From Bacteroidota bacterium (GTDB taxonomy: Bacteria; Bacteroidota; Bacteroidia; UKL13-3): a DNA stretch of 41,800 nucleotides. This document shows, one piece after another, positions 27,997 through 34,986 of the stretch. Location: assembly GCA_947446605.1 (NCBI GenBank), contig CANFHJ010000008.1, positions 1 to 41,800 on the forward strand, written 5' to 3'. A program made the position numbers and the translations under genes. The notes beneath the pieces are model-generated. The model was not told the DNA's origin and ran no database searches. It saw only the letters and a program-made list of their open reading frames with translations. How positions within the stretch are numbered: position 1 is the stretch's first letter; each line of letters starts with the position of its first letter.

Positions 27997-30900
27997 ATGA
28001 GCGAAACAACAGGAACAAAGAGAATCAATGCCGTAATGAAGGAGCTAAATGTGGGGATGACCACTTTAGTTGAAGTTTTGGCTAAAAAAGGGCATGCCAT
28101 TGAGGCAAAGCCTACTACCAAACTTTCAGAAGATCAGTACGCAATACTATTGTCCGAATTCTCCTCAGAGAAAAAAGTTAAAGACGAGGCCAATAAACTT
28201 GGCCGCGATAGGCTCAAACCAAAAGATACTGTTCACGAAATCCCTAAACCCAAAGCTCTTGTAGCCGAAGAAGAGGAAGAAGAAGATGGTATGCTTATTA
28301 AATCTGGTTTGGCTAATACCCAAAACAAAAAAGTGGAAGCGCCCGCACCTGTGGCACCTCCAGTAATTGATGTGCCTGCGCCGATGGTGGAACCAGTGAA
28401 AGTAGAAGCACCAAAAGTGGAAGCACCAATTGTAAATGCACCTGAAGAAAAAGAAGAAGGTGGCTTAAAGGTAATGGGTAAGATTGATTTGGATTCCCTT
28501 AAAAAACCAAAAGCAAAAGCTAAAAAAGCAGAGCCTAAAGTTGAAGAGCCTGTTGCCCCAGCTCCTAAGAAAAAAACCAAAGAAGAGCCAAAAACCGAAA
28601 TTCCTGTTGCTCCAGCAGCAATAGCTAATGAAGTTGAAACAATTGCTCCTCCAGCAAAAATAATAGAAGCTCCGCAAGAAATTGTTGAAGCCGAAGAACC
28701 TTCAGTTACAGAAGTTAAATACGAAAAGTTAGAAGGTTTAAAGGTAATGGGCAAAATAGAGCTCAGACAAGACCCCCCAGCTAAAAAACAAAATCCCGTA
28801 GCAAGTAGTGACGATCCAAACGGAAAACGCAAACGTAAACGCAAACAAATAGGTGGTGACCAACCTGGAACCCAGCGAGTAGACCCAAATAAACCAGCTG
28901 ATCCAAACCGTCCACGCACCGGATACCAAGGTACAAACAACCGTGGTCCTGGACAAGGTGGTGGATACCAAGGCACCAATAACCGTGGTCCTGGACAAGG
29001 TGGCGGGTACCAAGGCACCAATAACCGTTATGGCAACAAACCAGGCGCGCCTGGACAAGGTGCTAACCGTTTTGGCAAACCTGAAGAAAAAACTGAAATT
29101 AGCGATAAAGAAATTCAAGATAAATTAAAGGCAACTCTTGCCCGCCTGAACCCAGGCAGCAAGAATCCTAATATTGGTGCGGTTAGATCCAAAATTCGCA
29201 AGCAAAAACGTGACTTCAAAGCAAATGAGCGTGAAGAAGCAATGTTGCAAGAGGAAATGGAGAAAAACAAACTGAAGGTAACAGAATTTGTAACGGCAAA
29301 TGAACTTGCCCAAATGATGAACCTTCAAGTTACACAAATTATTAGCGCCTGTATGAGTTTAGGTATGATGGTGTCTATTAACCAACGCCTAGATGCAGAA
29401 ACCATTGCAATTGTAGCAGAAGAATTTGGATTTGAAGTAGAATTTGTTTCTGCAGAAATGGTGGAAGCAGTTGAGGAAGAAGTGGACGATCCAAGTACCC
29501 TTGAGCACCGCGCTCCTATTGTAACTGTAATGGGTCACGTAGATCATGGTAAAACATCTTTACTCGATTATGTGCGTAGCGCTAACGTAGTAAAAGGCGA
29601 AGCGGGTGGTATTACACAGCATATAGGTGCCTACGAAGTAAAATTAGATAACGGCAAGAAAATTACCTTCCTCGATACTCCTGGTCACGAAGCTTTTACG
29701 GCTATGCGTGCAAGGGGAGCCAAAATTACCGACATCGTAATTATTGTAATTGCAGCAGATGATTCTGTAATGCCACAAACCAAAGAGGCTATCTCCCACT
29801 CATTGGCAGCAGGCGTTCCAATTATTTTTGCCATCAATAAAATTGACCGTGATTCTGCTAATCCAGATAGAATTCGTGAGCAACTCTCTGCCATGAATAT
29901 CCTTGTTGAAGAATGGGGCGGTAAATACCAATGCCAAGAAATATCTGCCAAAAAAGGTACAGGTATTGAAGCATTATTAGAAAAAGTATTGCTTGAGGCA
30001 GAAATGCTCGACCTAAAAGCAAATCCAAATAAACGTGCTGTAGGTTCTATTATTGAAGCAACTTTGGATAAAGGACGTGGTATAGTTACTACCGTAATGG
30101 TTCAAAGTGGTACAATGAAAGTGGGCGATCCGCTTTTAGCTGGAACTAACAATGGTAAAGTAAGAGCCATGTTTGACGAACGTGGAAAGAAAATGCTTTT
30201 GGCTGGACCAAGTACACCAGTTGTTATTCTTGGTTTTGATGGTGCCCCACAAGCAGGTGACCGTTTTATGGTAACCAAAAATGAACAAGAAGCGAAAGAA
30301 ATTGCCAATAAACGCCAACAATTGCAACGTGAGCAAGGTATTAGAACCAATAAACATATTACCTTAGATGAAATCGGAAGACGATTAGCAATTGGTAACT
30401 TTAAAGAATTAAATGTTATTGTTAAAGGCGACGTGGATGGTTCTGTGGAAGCATTAGCAGATTCATTGATTAAACTTTCAACTCCAGAAGTTCAGTTGAG
30501 TGTTATTTATAAAGCGGTAGGACAAATTTCTGAAAGTGATGTAATGTTAGCTTCAGCTTCGGATGCCATTATCGTTGGTTTCCAAGTTCGTCCAAGCCCG
30601 CAAGCCAGAAAACTTGCAGAAACAGAATCAATAGACATTCGTCTTTACTCTGTTATTTACAATGCAATTGAAGAAATTAAATCTGCAATTGAAGGTATGT
30701 TGGCGCCAACCATTGAAGAGAAAATATTGGGTAACGCACAAATCCGTGAGGTGTTTAAAATCACTAAAGTGGGTACCGTTGCAGGTTGTATGGTTACCGA
30801 CGGGAAATTGGTTAGAAATGCTAAAATCCGCTTAATTAGAGATGGTGTAGTTGTATTCTCAGGTGCACTTTCTTCACTTAAACGATTTAAAGACGATGCC

Positions 30901-31017
30901 AAAGAAGTGGCAACCGGTTTTGATTGCGGTTTAACCATTAACAATTACAATGATTTAAGAGAAGGTGACTATGTAGAAGCCTACGAAGAAATTGAAGTAA
31001 AACGTACCTTGAAATAA
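27997..31017 (+). CDS. infB: Translation initiation factor IF-2
   Basis: GTPase that brings initiator tRNA to the 30S subunit. At 1006 residues it has a long N-terminal extension typical of Bacteroidota. It opens with an IF2_N domain (about 1-55, [26 protein letters not shown]), then a disordered lysine/proline/alanine-rich region (about 65-370) with two copies of LKVMGKI(D/E)L and a glycine-rich tandem repeat, then a second IF2_N-like domain (about 425-485). The G domain begins near 505: GHVDHGKTS (G1), a T in GITQHIG (G2), DTPGHEAF (G3), NKID (G4). Domains II to IV complete the C-terminus. It is preceded by a structured gap after nusA and closed by a bidirectional terminator. Confidence 0.97.
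28921..29028 (+). repeat. Tandem 42-bp repeat inside infB ([14 protein letters not shown] units)
   Basis: Two full 42-bp units start at 28921 and 28963 and a third, partial one at 29005; each full unit encodes 14 residues [14 protein letters not shown]. The copies differ only at third positions and a few bases, so slippage or recombination could change copy number without shifting the frame. The segment lies in the disordered N-terminal region of IF-2. Confidence 0.9.
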
Positions 31018-31033
31018 ATTTAAATAGAATAAA

Positions 31034-31073
31034 ATAAAAAAAGGTTCAGCAAATAGTTGTTGAACCTTTTTTT
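31034..31073. terminator. Bidirectional terminator between infB and the redoxin gene
   Basis: AAAAAAGGTTCAGCAA pairs with TTGTTGAACCTTTTTT through one G-T wobble around an ATAG loop, with A-run and T-run on opposite sides. It lies between two converging genes. Confidence 0.92.
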
Positions 31074-31079
31074 ATGAGT

Positions 31080-31691
31080 CTATTTTCTAAAATAAATTTG
31101 GCAGCCAATTGATTTTGTATCTTCTATACTAGGATCTTTACCAGCCAAAAGATCTTCAACAGCATTTCTAACATAGGGTACTTCTACTTTTTCCGGCTCA
31201 GACCCATTGTCATCTATAGCGCCAGAATATTTAATAACCCATCTATTATCTTGCCTCCAAAGCACAAAAGCATGAGGCGTTTTTTGCGCATTAAATTGCT
31301 TGGCAACAACTTGAGTTGCATCTGTTAAATATTCGAAATTAAATTGCTCAACTTTAGCTTTAATTGCCATTTGTAAATAGCCATCCTCCTCGTAAAGCAT
31401 ACTGTCCGTTGAACTAATGGCTATTAATGGAACACCTTTGGCACTATAAATTTTATTCAGTTCATTTAATCTTCCAGGATACAATTTAGCAAATGGACAA
31501 TGATTGCATGTAAAAACAACTATTACACCCTTGCAATTTCTATAATCATTTAATTCTATCCATTTCCCGCTTGTACTATATAATCTAAAGTTATCTATTA
31601 CTTTATTTTTTTGTTTCGGTACGAACCCAAGAAATAAGAAAAAGGAAAATAGGAAACCCAAAAAATTAATTACCCTTTTTTTTATGTGCAT
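31080..31691 (-). CDS. Exported or membrane-anchored redoxin with CNHCP motif
   Basis: A 203-residue thioredoxin-fold protein with an N-terminal hydrophobic stretch (INFLGFLFSFFLFLGFV, about 8-24) that anchors or exports it. The AhpC/TSA-like domain shows IDNFRLYSTSGKWIELNDYRN, then VIVVFTCNHCPFAKLYPGRL (about 56-75) with CNHCP as the redox-active or metal-binding pair, PLIAISSTD, and the cis-proline TPHAFVLW (about 137-144). Bacterial CNHCP redoxins are poorly studied. It is the last of four leftward genes (MbnP-like, di-haem, YHYH, redoxin), 28 bases after the YHYH gene, so it may support disulfide or metal handling for those exported proteins. Confidence 0.82.
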   Translation of the reverse strand: MHIKKRVINFLGFLFSFFLFLGFVPKQKNKVIDNFRLYSTSGKWIELNDYRNCKGVIVVFTCNHCPFAKLYPGRLNELNKIYSAKGVPLIAISSTDSMLYEEDGYLQMAIKAKVEQFNFEYLTDATQVVAKQFNAQKTPHAFVLWRQDNRWVIKYSGAIDDNGSEPEKVEVPYVRNAVEDLLAGKDPSIEDTKSIGCQIYFRK

Positions 31692-31719
31692 GGAATAAAA
31701 TTATTAAAGCTACACATGC

Positions 31720-33075
31720 TTAATGAGCAATGATTAATTTTTTAATTACAAGTTGTGAATCGTTTGAAATTCGAACAAGATATTCACCATCATAAAGCAA
31801 CCTTGTTTCAAGATAAGCAATGGTACTCCCTTGCAAAATGTATGCAGATTGAATTAGCCTTCCGCTGAGGTCGAACAATTCTACTTTTAAATTTTCATGT
31901 AATAAACCCTCACTTTGAACGGCAACTATTTCTGAAGAAGGATTTGGGAATATAGAAATTTCCAAACTGCTTGAAATTGCTGCAGGAATGCCTGTTTTAG
32001 CGGGCTTATACTGCGTTACAGCCTCTGAAATGCTTGGCACTTTTGAAGCAGTTTTAACTCCATAATAAGTTGGGCCTATTAAATAGGGATAAGCAGAATT
32101 CCAATTTTCGTCTACTGTAGCAAAGTAGCAATAAATCCCATTTGGATATTCTGGCGTTACACAAAAACGACCATTATGAATATCTAAATAATCTGCAGAA
32201 ATTGGAGCTGTGTATTGGTAATCTTCTCTGAATAAGCCAAGCGGATAAGTTGTACTTACATCTGGCCCTGCTGTAACAGTTACCCCTGTATATAAAGTTG
32301 TTCTTGTTGTTATAGAACGTAAAGAAAAACTAGATTTCATTCTAACAATTCCTCCGGTTCCATCGGTGTTTTTAAAGGCATAAGCACCATAAACAGGAAA
32401 ACCATCATAGGCAAAGCCTAATAAAGGAGAATGCTTTGTTGAATCTAAAACATAAAGCCCATCTGCATCATACAAATTACAAACTGTTGAAATAACATTT
32501 TTATCTAATTTAAATGCACTCGGGTTCTGATGATGGTGGTAGTTTCCCATAGCTGGATGACCCTTAGAACAATCGAAACCACCACGTTCAGCTACAATAG
32601 CATCTCTGTTCCATACTTGATCTCCCATGCCACCTAAAGGTCCGCCTTTTAGTGAATTGGTTGCATTTTGCCACGATACCCCATCACGGTAATCAAACAT
32701 GGCAACACCATTGATAAAAATACCAATATTACCCCCCTGAGTTGGCGTGGCAGTTCCAGTGTTTTGTAAAGGGTTTAAGGGCAATTTAAAAATGGCATTT
32801 TGATTGGTTGTAACAGAAGGATTACCATCTAAAAAAGGCCCAGTAACATAAGAAGGAACACCATTGGCTCTAACATATACCGAAGCAGTTGAATAATAAA
32901 CGGCTAATACATTTGCAGAATCGGCATCATTAATTGCAGTTGAATTATTTTTTATATAGTGCCTTCCTTTAATACCAGTGGTATTATGTAACCAAGATAA
33001 TATGGCCGGGTTTGTTTGGGCATAAGCACTTATTCCTGAAACAAGAAATACGTATGCGATAAATAATCTTTTCAT
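31720..33075 (-). CDS. YHYH-domain protein with C-terminal T9SS sorting domain
   Basis: A 451-residue secreted protein. A signal peptide (MKRLFIAYVFLVSGISAYAQ, cleavage near 20) precedes the YHYH region, with GNYHHHQNP (about 177-185), GIFINGVAMFDYRDGVSW (about 118-135), DADGLYVLDSTKHSPLLGFAYDGFPVYG (about 203-230) and a late YCYFATVDENW segment. The last 75-80 residues (from ISIFPNPSSE) are a type A sorting domain for the type IX secretion system, which exports the protein to the cell surface. The histidine-rich core is suited to metal binding. It is third in the MbnP-like cluster, 100 bases after the di-haem gene. The biochemical activity of YHYH proteins is not established. Confidence 0.85.
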   Translation of the reverse strand: MKRLFIAYVFLVSGISAYAQTNPAILSWLHNTTGIKGRHYIKNNSTAINDADSANVLAVYYSTASVYVRANGVPSYVTGPFLDGNPSVTTNQNAIFKLPLNPLQNTGTATPTQGGNIGIFINGVAMFDYRDGVSWQNATNSLKGGPLGGMGDQVWNRDAIVAERGGFDCSKGHPAMGNYHHHQNPSAFKLDKNVISTVCNLYDADGLYVLDSTKHSPLLGFAYDGFPVYGAYAFKNTDGTGGIVRMKSSFSLRSITTRTTLYTGVTVTAGPDVSTTYPLGLFREDYQYTAPISADYLDIHNGRFCVTPEYPNGIYCYFATVDENWNSAYPYLIGPTYYGVKTASKVPSISEAVTQYKPAKTGIPAAISSSLEISIFPNPSSEIVAVQSEGLLHENLKVELFDLSGRLIQSAYILQGSTIAYLETRLLYDGEYLVRISNDSQLVIKKLIIAH

Positions 33076-33175
33076 AGGTGTAGGTTTTATTTTAAAAATT
33101 GGATATCTAAAACAAAAAATAAGACAATCAATCCTAAATTTTGTTTTAATTTTTATATTAGACGCCCAAAAAGAA

Positions 33176-34204
33176 CTAATCCTTCGTCATATTTAAAAAC
33201 ATTTTTCTTGGGTAAGAATAATTCTCATTAAATAAAAACTCTTTATCTGTAAGGCATAGCAGGAATGCGCTTAAGTCTACCCTTTCTTCCTTATTTAATT
33301 TAATAGGATCTTTAAGCAAATTTGACAAAGAAGAAGTTTTACACTTTGGTGACGTATAATGTAACAATACAGCTGAAATTGTTTTGAATCGACCATCATG
33401 CATATAAGGAAATGAAAATTCAATATTTCTTAAAGTTGGTACTTTAAATTTAAAAGAGTCTGAAATATTTTGTGTAATCATTAACCTCCCAAAATCACGT
33501 AAATTATCATCCACACATAAACCATTATTTTCAAATTCTAAATTGGTAAACAATGGTTCGGTATGACAACCATTACAATGGTTTTTAAAGAGAACATAAC
33601 CTTTTTTTTCTTGTGGTGTAAAATTTGCCTCATGCCGCATTACAGAATCATATTTTGAATTAGCACTTACCAAAGTGAGCAAAAATTGAGAAATAGATTT
33701 TAATACAAATTCACTTTTCACAATAGAGTCCCCATAGGCTTTTGCAACTAATGATTTATATAATTTTGAACGGTTCAATTTTACAAGCAACGAATCTAAA
33801 CGCTCACCCATTTCTTTAGGATGGGTAATTGGCGCAAGCGCTTGCATATCTAGATGATTAATTGCACCATCCCACATGAAGCTTTTATGCCAAGCAAGGT
33901 TCATTAAAGTAGGGGAATTTCTTGTACCAATGCTGTCATAAATTCCATGACTAAGCGCATGGTCTGCATGGGTGAATGCGTTGTATTGTGAATGGCAACT
34001 TGCACAAGAAATAGTATTATTCTTTGATAAAATTGGGTCGTAAAAAAGCGCTCTACCTAATAAAACTACATCTTCGCTTAATGGATTGCGTTTAAAATTA
34101 TAAACTGGTTTCGGCCATCCTTTTGGTATTTGCAAATCAAATTTGGTTTGCGCAACAAATCCAAAAAACGACAAAATAATTAAATATATGAATAGCCTTT
34201 TCAT
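33176..34204 (-). CDS. Di-haem protein of the cytochrome c peroxidase/MauG/MbnH family
   Basis: A 342-residue periplasmic protein with a signal peptide (MKRLFIYLIILSFFGFVAQ). Two c-type haem sites are visible: CASCH at 67-71 and CNGCH at 210-214. Family segments include LGRALFYDPILSKNNTISC, GTRNSPTLMNLAW, MWDGAINHLDMQALAPITHPKEMG (about 110-133) and VPTLRNIEFSFPYMHDGRF in the C-terminal part. Peroxidases of this family reduce H2O2; MauG and MbnH instead oxidise tryptophan on a partner protein. Its ATG overlaps the stop of the MbnP-like gene by one base (TAATG), so the two are translationally coupled, which favours the MbnH role over plain peroxidase. Confidence 0.88.
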   Translation of the reverse strand: MKRLFIYLIILSFFGFVAQTKFDLQIPKGWPKPVYNFKRNPLSEDVVLLGRALFYDPILSKNNTISCASCHSQYNAFTHADHALSHGIYDSIGTRNSPTLMNLAWHKSFMWDGAINHLDMQALAPITHPKEMGERLDSLLVKLNRSKLYKSLVAKAYGDSIVKSEFVLKSISQFLLTLVSANSKYDSVMRHEANFTPQEKKGYVLFKNHCNGCHTEPLFTNLEFENNGLCVDDNLRDFGRLMITQNISDSFKFKVPTLRNIEFSFPYMHDGRFKTISAVLLHYTSPKCKTSSLSNLLKDPIKLNKEERVDLSAFLLCLTDKEFLFNENYSYPRKMFLNMTKD

Positions 34205-34893
34205 TAATACTTAATTGCAAAACAATTGCTTAAATACCCGCTCAATAAAACAGCCTCTATGCTTGGTTGCATTAAATGATTTTGCTTATTTAAATCAATC
34301 TCTTTGAAAAAATACAGAAGATCAATTTGGATTGGCTGTATTGCCAAAGAATTAACTTTTAATGAAACAACTTTAATTGCATTAAAAGGGTTTTGGTAGC
34401 CTCCCAAATGGAATTCAAATGACTTTCGTACACTTTTACTAAAAAACACTCCCTCCATTTTTGAATTTATATAACCACTCTGCCAAGTCCAATACATCCC
34501 ATTTAAAGGATCTAAGGCGCCACTCATAGCCCCTGAAGTACTAGTTGTGCTGTCTATGCCCAAATTAAATTTTATTTGATTATAGGGAAATTTAAAGGCC
34601 ATATCCAATGGAATGTGAAAACTTGCTGGTTTACTCATATCAATTAAATGGTAGGAGTCTTTTTCTATGAACATCAAAGAATCATTGTTCCAAAATTCAA
34701 TACCACTTATATAAAATTTAAACGAGGTAATTTGAACTGAATCTGTTTGGTTCAGGTTAAAGTTAGAATCAAGACACAACGGATGCCCACCAATTAGTAT
34801 TTTCATTTCTATTGTTTGGGCATCACAATCTTGTTTTTCAATAATAAAAAACAGGACCAAAACCAATGTGTATTTAAAGAATTTCGCAATCAT
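34204..34893 (-). CDS. MbnP-like periplasmic protein (probable copper-binding partner of the di-haem protein)
   Basis: The open frame extends into the upstream terminator, so ATG 34893 is chosen; it gives MIAKFFKYTLVLVLFFII and a signal peptide ending near DAQ (residue 26), 229 residues in all. The mature part matches the MbnP-like domain: ITSFKFYISGIEFW (55-68), YHLIDMSKPASF (81-92), IKFNLGIDSTTSTSGAMSG (107-125), the hallmark GMYWTWQSGY (132-141) with KMEG (145-148), FHLGG (161-165), and a late NHLMQP (205-210). In studied MbnP proteins a tryptophan is converted to kynurenine by the di-haem partner and helps bind copper; W135 and W137 are the candidates here. The di-haem gene follows with a one-base overlap. 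Confidence 0.82.
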   Translation of the reverse strand: MIAKFFKYTLVLVLFFIIEKQDCDAQTIEMKILIGGHPLCLDSNFNLNQTDSVQITSFKFYISGIEFWNNDSLMFIEKDSYHLIDMSKPASFHIPLDMAFKFPYNQIKFNLGIDSTTSTSGAMSGALDPLNGMYWTWQSGYINSKMEGVFFSKSVRKSFEFHLGGYQNPFNAIKVVSLKVNSLAIQPIQIDLLYFFKEIDLNKQNHLMQPSIEAVLLSGYLSNCFAIKY

Positions 34894-34932
34894 TTCTGGT
34901 TTCAAATAACGCAATAATTTTGATTCAATAAT

Positions 34933-34972
34933 AAAAAAAGAGGCCAATGGAAATCCATTGGCCTCTTTTTTT
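34933..34972 (-). terminator. Intrinsic terminator after maeB
   Basis: AAAAAAAGAGGCCAATGG (34933-34950) pairs with CCATTGGCCTCTTTTTTT (34955-34972) around a four-base loop, an 18-bp stem with a T-run on the minus strand. It starts 15 bases after the maeB stop and separates maeB from the MbnP-like gene, which therefore needs its own promoter in the roughly 40 bases that follow; none matching TAnnTTTG exactly was found there. Confidence 0.93.
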
Positions 34973-34986
34973 ATTTGATTTTTTAG

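Follow-up and report, generated by a model that had tools for sequence, protein, structure and literature searches.

The MbnP-MbnH-YHYH gene set of Bacteroidota and its probable role in copper handling at the cell surface

MbnP and MbnH – the products of two adjacent genes of methanobactin operons – are also encoded as a stand-alone pair in many bacteria, and a locus in a member of the Bacteroidota raises the question of what such a pair does when other exported proteins accompany it. The locus lies within a stretch of 41,800 nucleotides (hereafter the window) from contig CANFHJ010000008.1 of assembly GCA_947446605.1 (GTDB lineage Bacteroidia; UKL13-3), and contains four leftward genes encoding an MbnP-like protein, an MbnH-like di-haem protein, a YHYH-domain protein with a sorting tail for the type IX secretion system (T9SS), and a redoxin with a CNHCP motif. 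A preliminary description of this DNA proposed that all four form a candidate copper or redox surface module, which could be an undescribed uptake system for copper or another metal. Here, we find that the conserved unit is MbnP-MbnH-YHYH, which recurs across the phylum and therefore probably represents a real but undescribed form of copper handling at the cell surface.

Linkage of the genes was examined in three samples. Among 64 genomes of the same order, MbnP is present in all 64 and a strong YHYH match in 41. Taking YHYH within 7 kb of MbnP as linkage, 26 of these 41 genomes have a linked gene, on the same strand in every case and mostly at a distance of 1.4-1.5 kb with MbnH in between; we estimate that chance would provide about half a genome, allowing ~14 kb around each of two to three MbnP genes in a 3 Mb genome. 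A set of 80 named loci was fetched by YHYH alone, 12 of them cut off by contig ends, and MbnP and MbnH lie within 6 kb in 57, a proportion that does not extend to YHYH proteins in general, because the loci were picked by similarity to the window YHYH protein. MbnH is directly upstream of YHYH in 54 of the 80. By taxon label these loci belong to Flavobacteriales, Crocinitomicaceae, Saprospiraceae/Lewinellaceae, Chitinophagales, Kapaibacterium and Ignavibacteria, and their outer neighbours differ. A named isolate, Fluviicola chungangensis MAH-3, carries the module as an ECF-Spy-MbnP-MbnH-YHYH locus (L202). In a phylum-wide sample of 395 genomes, 24 encode a full-length YHYH protein, 13 of those also have MbnP, and eight have both within about 3 kb. 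The counts from the order and from the named loci reject a chance neighbourhood. Thus the conserved order is that of the first three genes, whereas the exact quartet with redoxin is found only in close relatives.

MbnH adjoins nearly every MbnP gene found in the Bacteroidota in this analysis. The YHYH-free pairs of other families (L060-L069) often have a small upstream gene (e.g. L065:6955-7323, with CHGQCYLAKKL) and, downstream, a gene some 320 codons long (e.g. L060:8180-9157, with a CDICGC motif).

The MbnH proteins linked to YHYH are themselves distinctive. A motif just after the first haem site, HxDHxxxH, is present in 78 of 80 YHYH-linked MbnH proteins and in three of 49 unlinked ones, and one of those three is from a genome (G101) with YHYH on another contig. 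In a tree of 108 MbnH proteins the YHYH-linked label needs five changes, compared with 35.9 in shuffles, and 56 of the 58 linked proteins fall in a single group of 59 (support 93, by a quick method); the two outside it are L053_04, whose locus holds several MbnH copies, and L243_04, which sits on a very long branch. At the level of sequence, the YHYH-linked MbnH proteins are thus shown to be a distinct subfamily and nearly a single clade.

The window member of this subfamily matches CCP_MauG (Pfam, E 1e-49), and TIGR04039 is its best-scoring NCBIfam family. Among solved structures only 6E1C ('Di-heme enzyme'), which we take to be MbnH, aligns near full length, covering residues 23-332, whereas alignments with peroxidase and MauG structures stop by about residue 285; some peroxidases outscore 6E1C, but across a shorter stretch. 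Both CxxCH sites are present, together with Tyr283, which aligns with a Tyr of 6E1C; the position is probably that of the distal ligand (Tyr in MauG, Met in peroxidases). Tyr283 is conserved in 100% of YHYH-linked and 94% of unlinked proteins, and E131 is invariant. With TIGR04039 as the top family, 6E1C aligned near full length and Tyr283 kept, ordinary cytochrome c peroxidase was rejected as a better name. The profiles and the structure alignment agree on a MauG/MbnH-type partner beside MbnP, and the protein resembles the OB3b enzyme (6E1C) in its two CxxCH haems, PYMHDG and MauG-type Tyr.

The MbnP-like protein matches PF20243 (136.1 bits, E 1.8e-39, gathering cut-off 27), and its relation to the solved protein required a comparison of folds, because sequence and profile searches of the PDB were weak: a single-sequence search gave no match at E up to 1, and a profile search gave only 7l6g, at E 0.94, with GMAWNW of that protein in register with the window WxW. 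For an AlphaFold2 model based on the window protein together with 46 relatives, mean pLDDT (predicted local distance difference test) is 91.6, and the solved MbnP, 7L6G, is the one PDB entry that matches this model significantly (Foldseek E 1.8e-7, probability 1.00). VIA superimposes the two with Z 16.7 over 205 residues at a root-mean-square deviation of 3.2 Å, with the next best structure at Z 4.4, although identity to the OB3b protein is about 15%. The model therefore agrees with the proposal that this product is MbnP, which is supported by its predicted fold.

Residues of the predicted copper site are stricter in MbnP proteins linked to YHYH. M133, W135, W137 and H162 are each present in 100% of 71 YHYH-linked proteins, compared with 91%, 95%, 89% and 67%, respectively, of 55 unlinked ones; Y134, Q138, Y166, M208 and P210 are marks particular to the linked group. 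(The W135/W137 numbering of the preliminary description is right, counting from the start codon.) Work on OB3b MbnP published in PNAS in 2021 reportedly showed that kynurenine forms from the first Trp of WxW and that Cu(I) is held by a His and a Met. Taking this site as a guide, M133, W135, W137 and H162 of the window protein are a candidate Cu(I) and kynurenine site.

The window pair is thus like MbnP/MbnH of the methanobactin operon of Methylosinus trichosporium OB3b (7L6G, 6E1C) in its adjacent genes, predicted MbnP fold and WxW/Met/His residues, and unlike that operon in having a T9SS-tailed YHYH protein, a redoxin, and HxDHxxxH in MbnH. No methanobactin genes had been seen near the pair, and in the genome (84.5% complete) neither TIGR04159 nor PF05114 matches an MbnB-family gene. 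This supports the suggestion of a stand-alone version, which is not a novelty in itself, since stand-alone MbnP/MbnH pairs were recognized in many bacteria in 2013 as 'mysterious partners' with a role then open (PMC3621798).

Several MbnP genes occur apart from YHYH or in more than one copy. The same genome (G000) has a second MbnP-MbnH pair on contig 146 (L050:3706-4506), without YHYH and next to a gene for a large PKD-type protein that the end of the contig truncates, and a third MbnP-like paralogue on contig 48 (L051:6112-6855) that adjoins MbnH and nadA/nadB-like genes and keeps the first but not the second Trp of WxW (NMAWPEVIGGGY). Elsewhere, tandem MbnP duplicates precede a single MbnH (L163:5711-7248 and L164:5480-7040).

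The third member of the unit matches PF14240 (YHYH) at 193.9 bits (E 3.6e-57, gathering cut-off 25). Its proposed type IX sorting tail passes the cut-offs of TIGR04183/PF18962 (42.5 bits, cut-off 23; 42.9 bits, cut-off 27), and a tail of this kind is present on nearly all MbnP/MbnH-linked YHYH proteins. The Asp/His/Tyr set of the predicted metal site is invariant in bacterial YHYH proteins, which have many invariant Trp and Tyr residues besides. The domain and this set are also the likeness to phage YHYH proteins, including tail-associated forms, although phage relatives retain only part of D168/H173/YHHH/H215/D224/D285, and the window protein is unlike them in being a T9SS-tailed bacterial protein adjoining MbnH. 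An AlphaFold2 model of it is poor (pLDDT 60), even with phage relatives in the alignment. YHYH proteins are common in contigs of uncultivated viruses (L248-L327), where some are repeated or large and multi-domain and the central YHxH histidines vary.

In the window the four genes are open at the coordinates and strand first given for them (Table 1), with a 1-base overlap at 34204 followed by gaps of 100 and 28 bases, and the motifs reported earlier – GMYWTWQSGY, FHLGG, two CxxCH, PYMHDGRF, YHHHQNP and CNHCP – are all present. All four N-termini resemble signal peptides or anchors, as judged by eye. A scan for terminator-like sites observed six where 2.8 were expected, including two long hairpins of 19-20 pairs. 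Hairpins stand on both sides of the four genes and separate them from the malic enzyme gene and from infB. This arrangement is consistent with a single transcription unit, and we regard the set as operon-like and built around the MbnP-MbnH-YHYH core.

Table 1. Positions of the four genes, their motifs and the flanking hairpins in the window
Feature	Coordinates	Strand	Remarks
Four-gene set	31080-34893	(-)	Order MbnP, MbnH-like, YHYH, CNHCP redoxin
MbnP-like protein, 229 residues	34204..34893	(-)	ATG at 34893; probable signal peptide; PF20243
WxW motif, Met133-Tyr-Trp135-Thr-Trp137	34483..34497	(-)	Trp135 is the predicted kynurenine site
His162 of FHLGG	34408..34410	(-)	Predicted copper ligand
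MbnH/MauG-like di-haem protein, 342 residues	33176..34204	(-)	CCP_MauG, TIGR04039
Haem c site 1, CASCH (C67-H71)	33992..34006	(-)	100% conserved
HxDHxxxH (H79, D81, H82, H86)	33947..33970	(-)	Signature of YHYH-linked MbnH, just after first haem
Haem c site 2, CNGCH (C210-H214)	33563..33577	(-)	100% conserved
Tyr283	33356..33358	(-)	Aligned with Tyr of 6e1c; probable MauG-type Tyr position
YHYH protein, 451 residues	31720..33075	(-)	Signal peptide, T9SS type A sorting tail; PF14240, PF18962
YHHH motif (Y179-H182)	32530..32541	(-)	Predicted metal site with invariant D168, H173, H215, D224, D285
Por_Secre_tail / T9SS type A sorting domain, residues 375-449	31729..31953	(-)	PF18962 E 6.1e-11
CNHCP redoxin (AhpC/TSA family), 203 residues	31080..31691	(-)	N-terminal signal or anchor; PF00578 E 2e-13
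CNHCP motif (C62-P66)	31494..31508	(-)	Invariant in YHYH-linked set
Terminator hairpin, strong	34931..34975	(-); scan lists + strand	Between malic enzyme gene and MbnP; near-symmetric, T-rich flanks
Terminator hairpin, strong	31034..31075	(-)	3' of redoxin gene; common to converging infB; T-rich flanks

The redoxin matches AhpC-TSA/Redoxin (50.8 bits, gathering cut-off 26). Its 19 close homologues in the order include 13 within about 3 kb of YHYH, five beside a CueO-like oxidase and one on a truncated contig; where MbnP is not linked, redoxins of this type still accompany YHYH or the oxidase. Because its neighbour is YHYH or oxidase in 18 of the 19, the redoxin belongs with the secreted partners and not with MbnP/MbnH. 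The direct quartet without an oxidase is found only in the window genome and in G129, whose redoxin is 98% identical, while five others (G118, G122, G135, L173 and L175) have the quartet with an oxidase inserted. As a conserved unit, the quartet was rejected. CNHCP redoxins are also part of a dense cluster of secreted proteins without MbnP (L330:2992-15713, L150 and L156), in which many proteins are T9SS-tailed and which includes oxidases, a sulfatase, a TlpA-like protein and two calcineurin-like phosphatases, together with a YHYH protein of a second, weak type.

The oxidase is one of several accessory genes found in relatives. In several of them a T9SS-tailed multicopper oxidase lies between MbnH and YHYH or adjoins YHYH, and a CueO-like oxidase is present in 15 of the 80 named loci. 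The operonic form is nearest CueO in NCBIfam (NF008205, 375 bits, below the equivalog cut-off of 525), and differs from CueO-type oxidases in having a T9SS tail. It is outside the window operon, but the window genome does have this gene (71% identity), on contig 31, where the next gene encodes a T9SS sulfatase like those also seen beside YHYH. To judge from the gene content of relatives, the copper context is strengthened by this oxidase. In 27 loci an extracytoplasmic function (ECF) sigma factor and a periplasmic protein of about 150 residues precede MbnP, in most cases separated by the gene for a small membrane protein. Neither the small membrane protein nor the periplasmic protein has a significant Pfam match; the latter has invariant H61, H112 and C120 and may tentatively be called Spy-like, since its profile weakly matches Spy 3oeo (E 0.008) and one member matches NCBIfam Spy at 4e-7. 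The position of these three genes before MbnP suggests envelope or metal-responsive control.

The reading that we favour, by a modest degree, is that the window holds a four-gene operon on an MbnP-MbnH-YHYH core, in which the MbnP/MbnH pair provides copper to T9SS-secreted metalloproteins or buffers it for them. All four proteins would be exported, and MbnH would draw on peroxide or oxygen at its haem pair to turn Trp135 of MbnP into kynurenine, close to which the mature protein would then hold Cu(I) through Met133 and His162. This copper would be meant for, or come from, secreted metalloproteins, of which YHYH would be the constant one and the CueO-like oxidase a further one in relatives. As an exported thiol oxidoreductase, the CNHCP redoxin may keep cysteines or copper protected or reduced on behalf of these partners. 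A bolder form of this reading, which we put forward tentatively and think has well under an even chance, is that the core, in many cases joined by ECF/Spy-like control and by a CueO-like oxidase that is secreted, is a previously undescribed surface copper system of Bacteroidota whose kynurenine copper protein supplies the metal of T9SS-exported enzymes, and that YHYH is a new secreted cuproprotein and not a zinc hydrolase.

Several points weigh against a copper-supplying role. Kynurenine, copper binding, the direction of copper flow, any role in uptake as opposed to detoxification or the metallation of enzymes, and the role of the redoxin are what we infer. Phage YHYH proteins are predicted to be metal-dependent zinc hydrolases (PMC7824862). 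Sulfatases and phosphatases too adjoin YHYH, so that copper may be only part of a wider theme. The majority of MbnP genes in the phylum are unlinked to YHYH, and many YHYH genomes are without MbnP. Finally, the window proteins do not reach the curated NCBIfam cut-offs of TIGR04052 (MbnP_like_WxW equivalog; 43.3 bits, cut-off 140) or TIGR04039 (MbnH; 194.5 bits, E 2.4e-57, cut-off 362.85), and are thus divergent members. These two families define the metallo-mystery pair (GenProp0940), which the window genes resemble as a stand-alone pair of adjacent genes, and from which they differ in these scores and in the recurrent YHYH partner.

An alternative that we consider unlikely is that MbnP/MbnH is a copper uptake or scavenging device of the kind proposed for CorA/MopE, with YHYH as an extra surface copper binder and the redoxin incidental. 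Kynurenine Cu(I) proteins are known from methanotrophs, where CorA/CorB and MopE/SACCP pair a surface or secreted protein of this kind with an adjacent di-haem peroxidase gene, and CorA is copper-repressed and surface-associated (PMC3912023). The T9SS tail of YHYH fits surface or secreted display as well. However, maps of the YHYH-linked loci, inspected by eye, have no recurrent TonB receptor or other transporter gene, and the CueO-like oxidase points at least equally to oxidation or tolerance. In a comparison of the proteins themselves, MbnP is not markedly similar to MopE/CorA in sequence (PMC3621798), and the copper ligands of CorA are two His, compared with the one Met and one His that are candidates in the window protein.

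Tolerance is the theme of a further, rather improbable alternative, an operon for copper or redox stress in which MbnP would act as a Cu(I) buffer, oxidation of Cu(I) to Cu(II) would fall to the oxidase, thiol repair to the redoxin, and the sensing of envelope or metal stress to the ECF and Spy-like proteins. The CueO-like oxidase, ECF sigma factor, CNHCP redoxin and weakly matching Spy-like protein are all in keeping with it, but no copper exporter or CopZ-like chaperone was seen in the maps by eye, and the window operon is without ECF and oxidase genes. That the MauG-like enzyme acts mainly on Tyr or Trp of YHYH, with MbnP secondary or scaffolding, would suit the separate clade of YHYH-linked MbnH with its private motif and the many invariant Trp and Tyr of YHYH, but is very improbable given that MbnP is first in the operon and its M/WxW/H residues are stricter when linked than elsewhere.

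As to precedent for the three-gene core, the YHYH-specific MbnP/MbnH subfamily appears to be undescribed in the searchable literature, which excluded later MbnP/MbnH papers; the literature searched contains no mention of a YHYH domain or protein together with a multicopper oxidase and no tested function for the YHYH domain. With a partner and a copper oxidase that recur, and a signature specific to one MbnH clade, the roles of both MbnP/MbnH and YHYH become testable, also in the isolate F. chungangensis MAH-3.

Beyond the operon, the product of the converging infB gene (window 27997-31017) contains a repeated 14-letter protein stretch in its N-terminal region.

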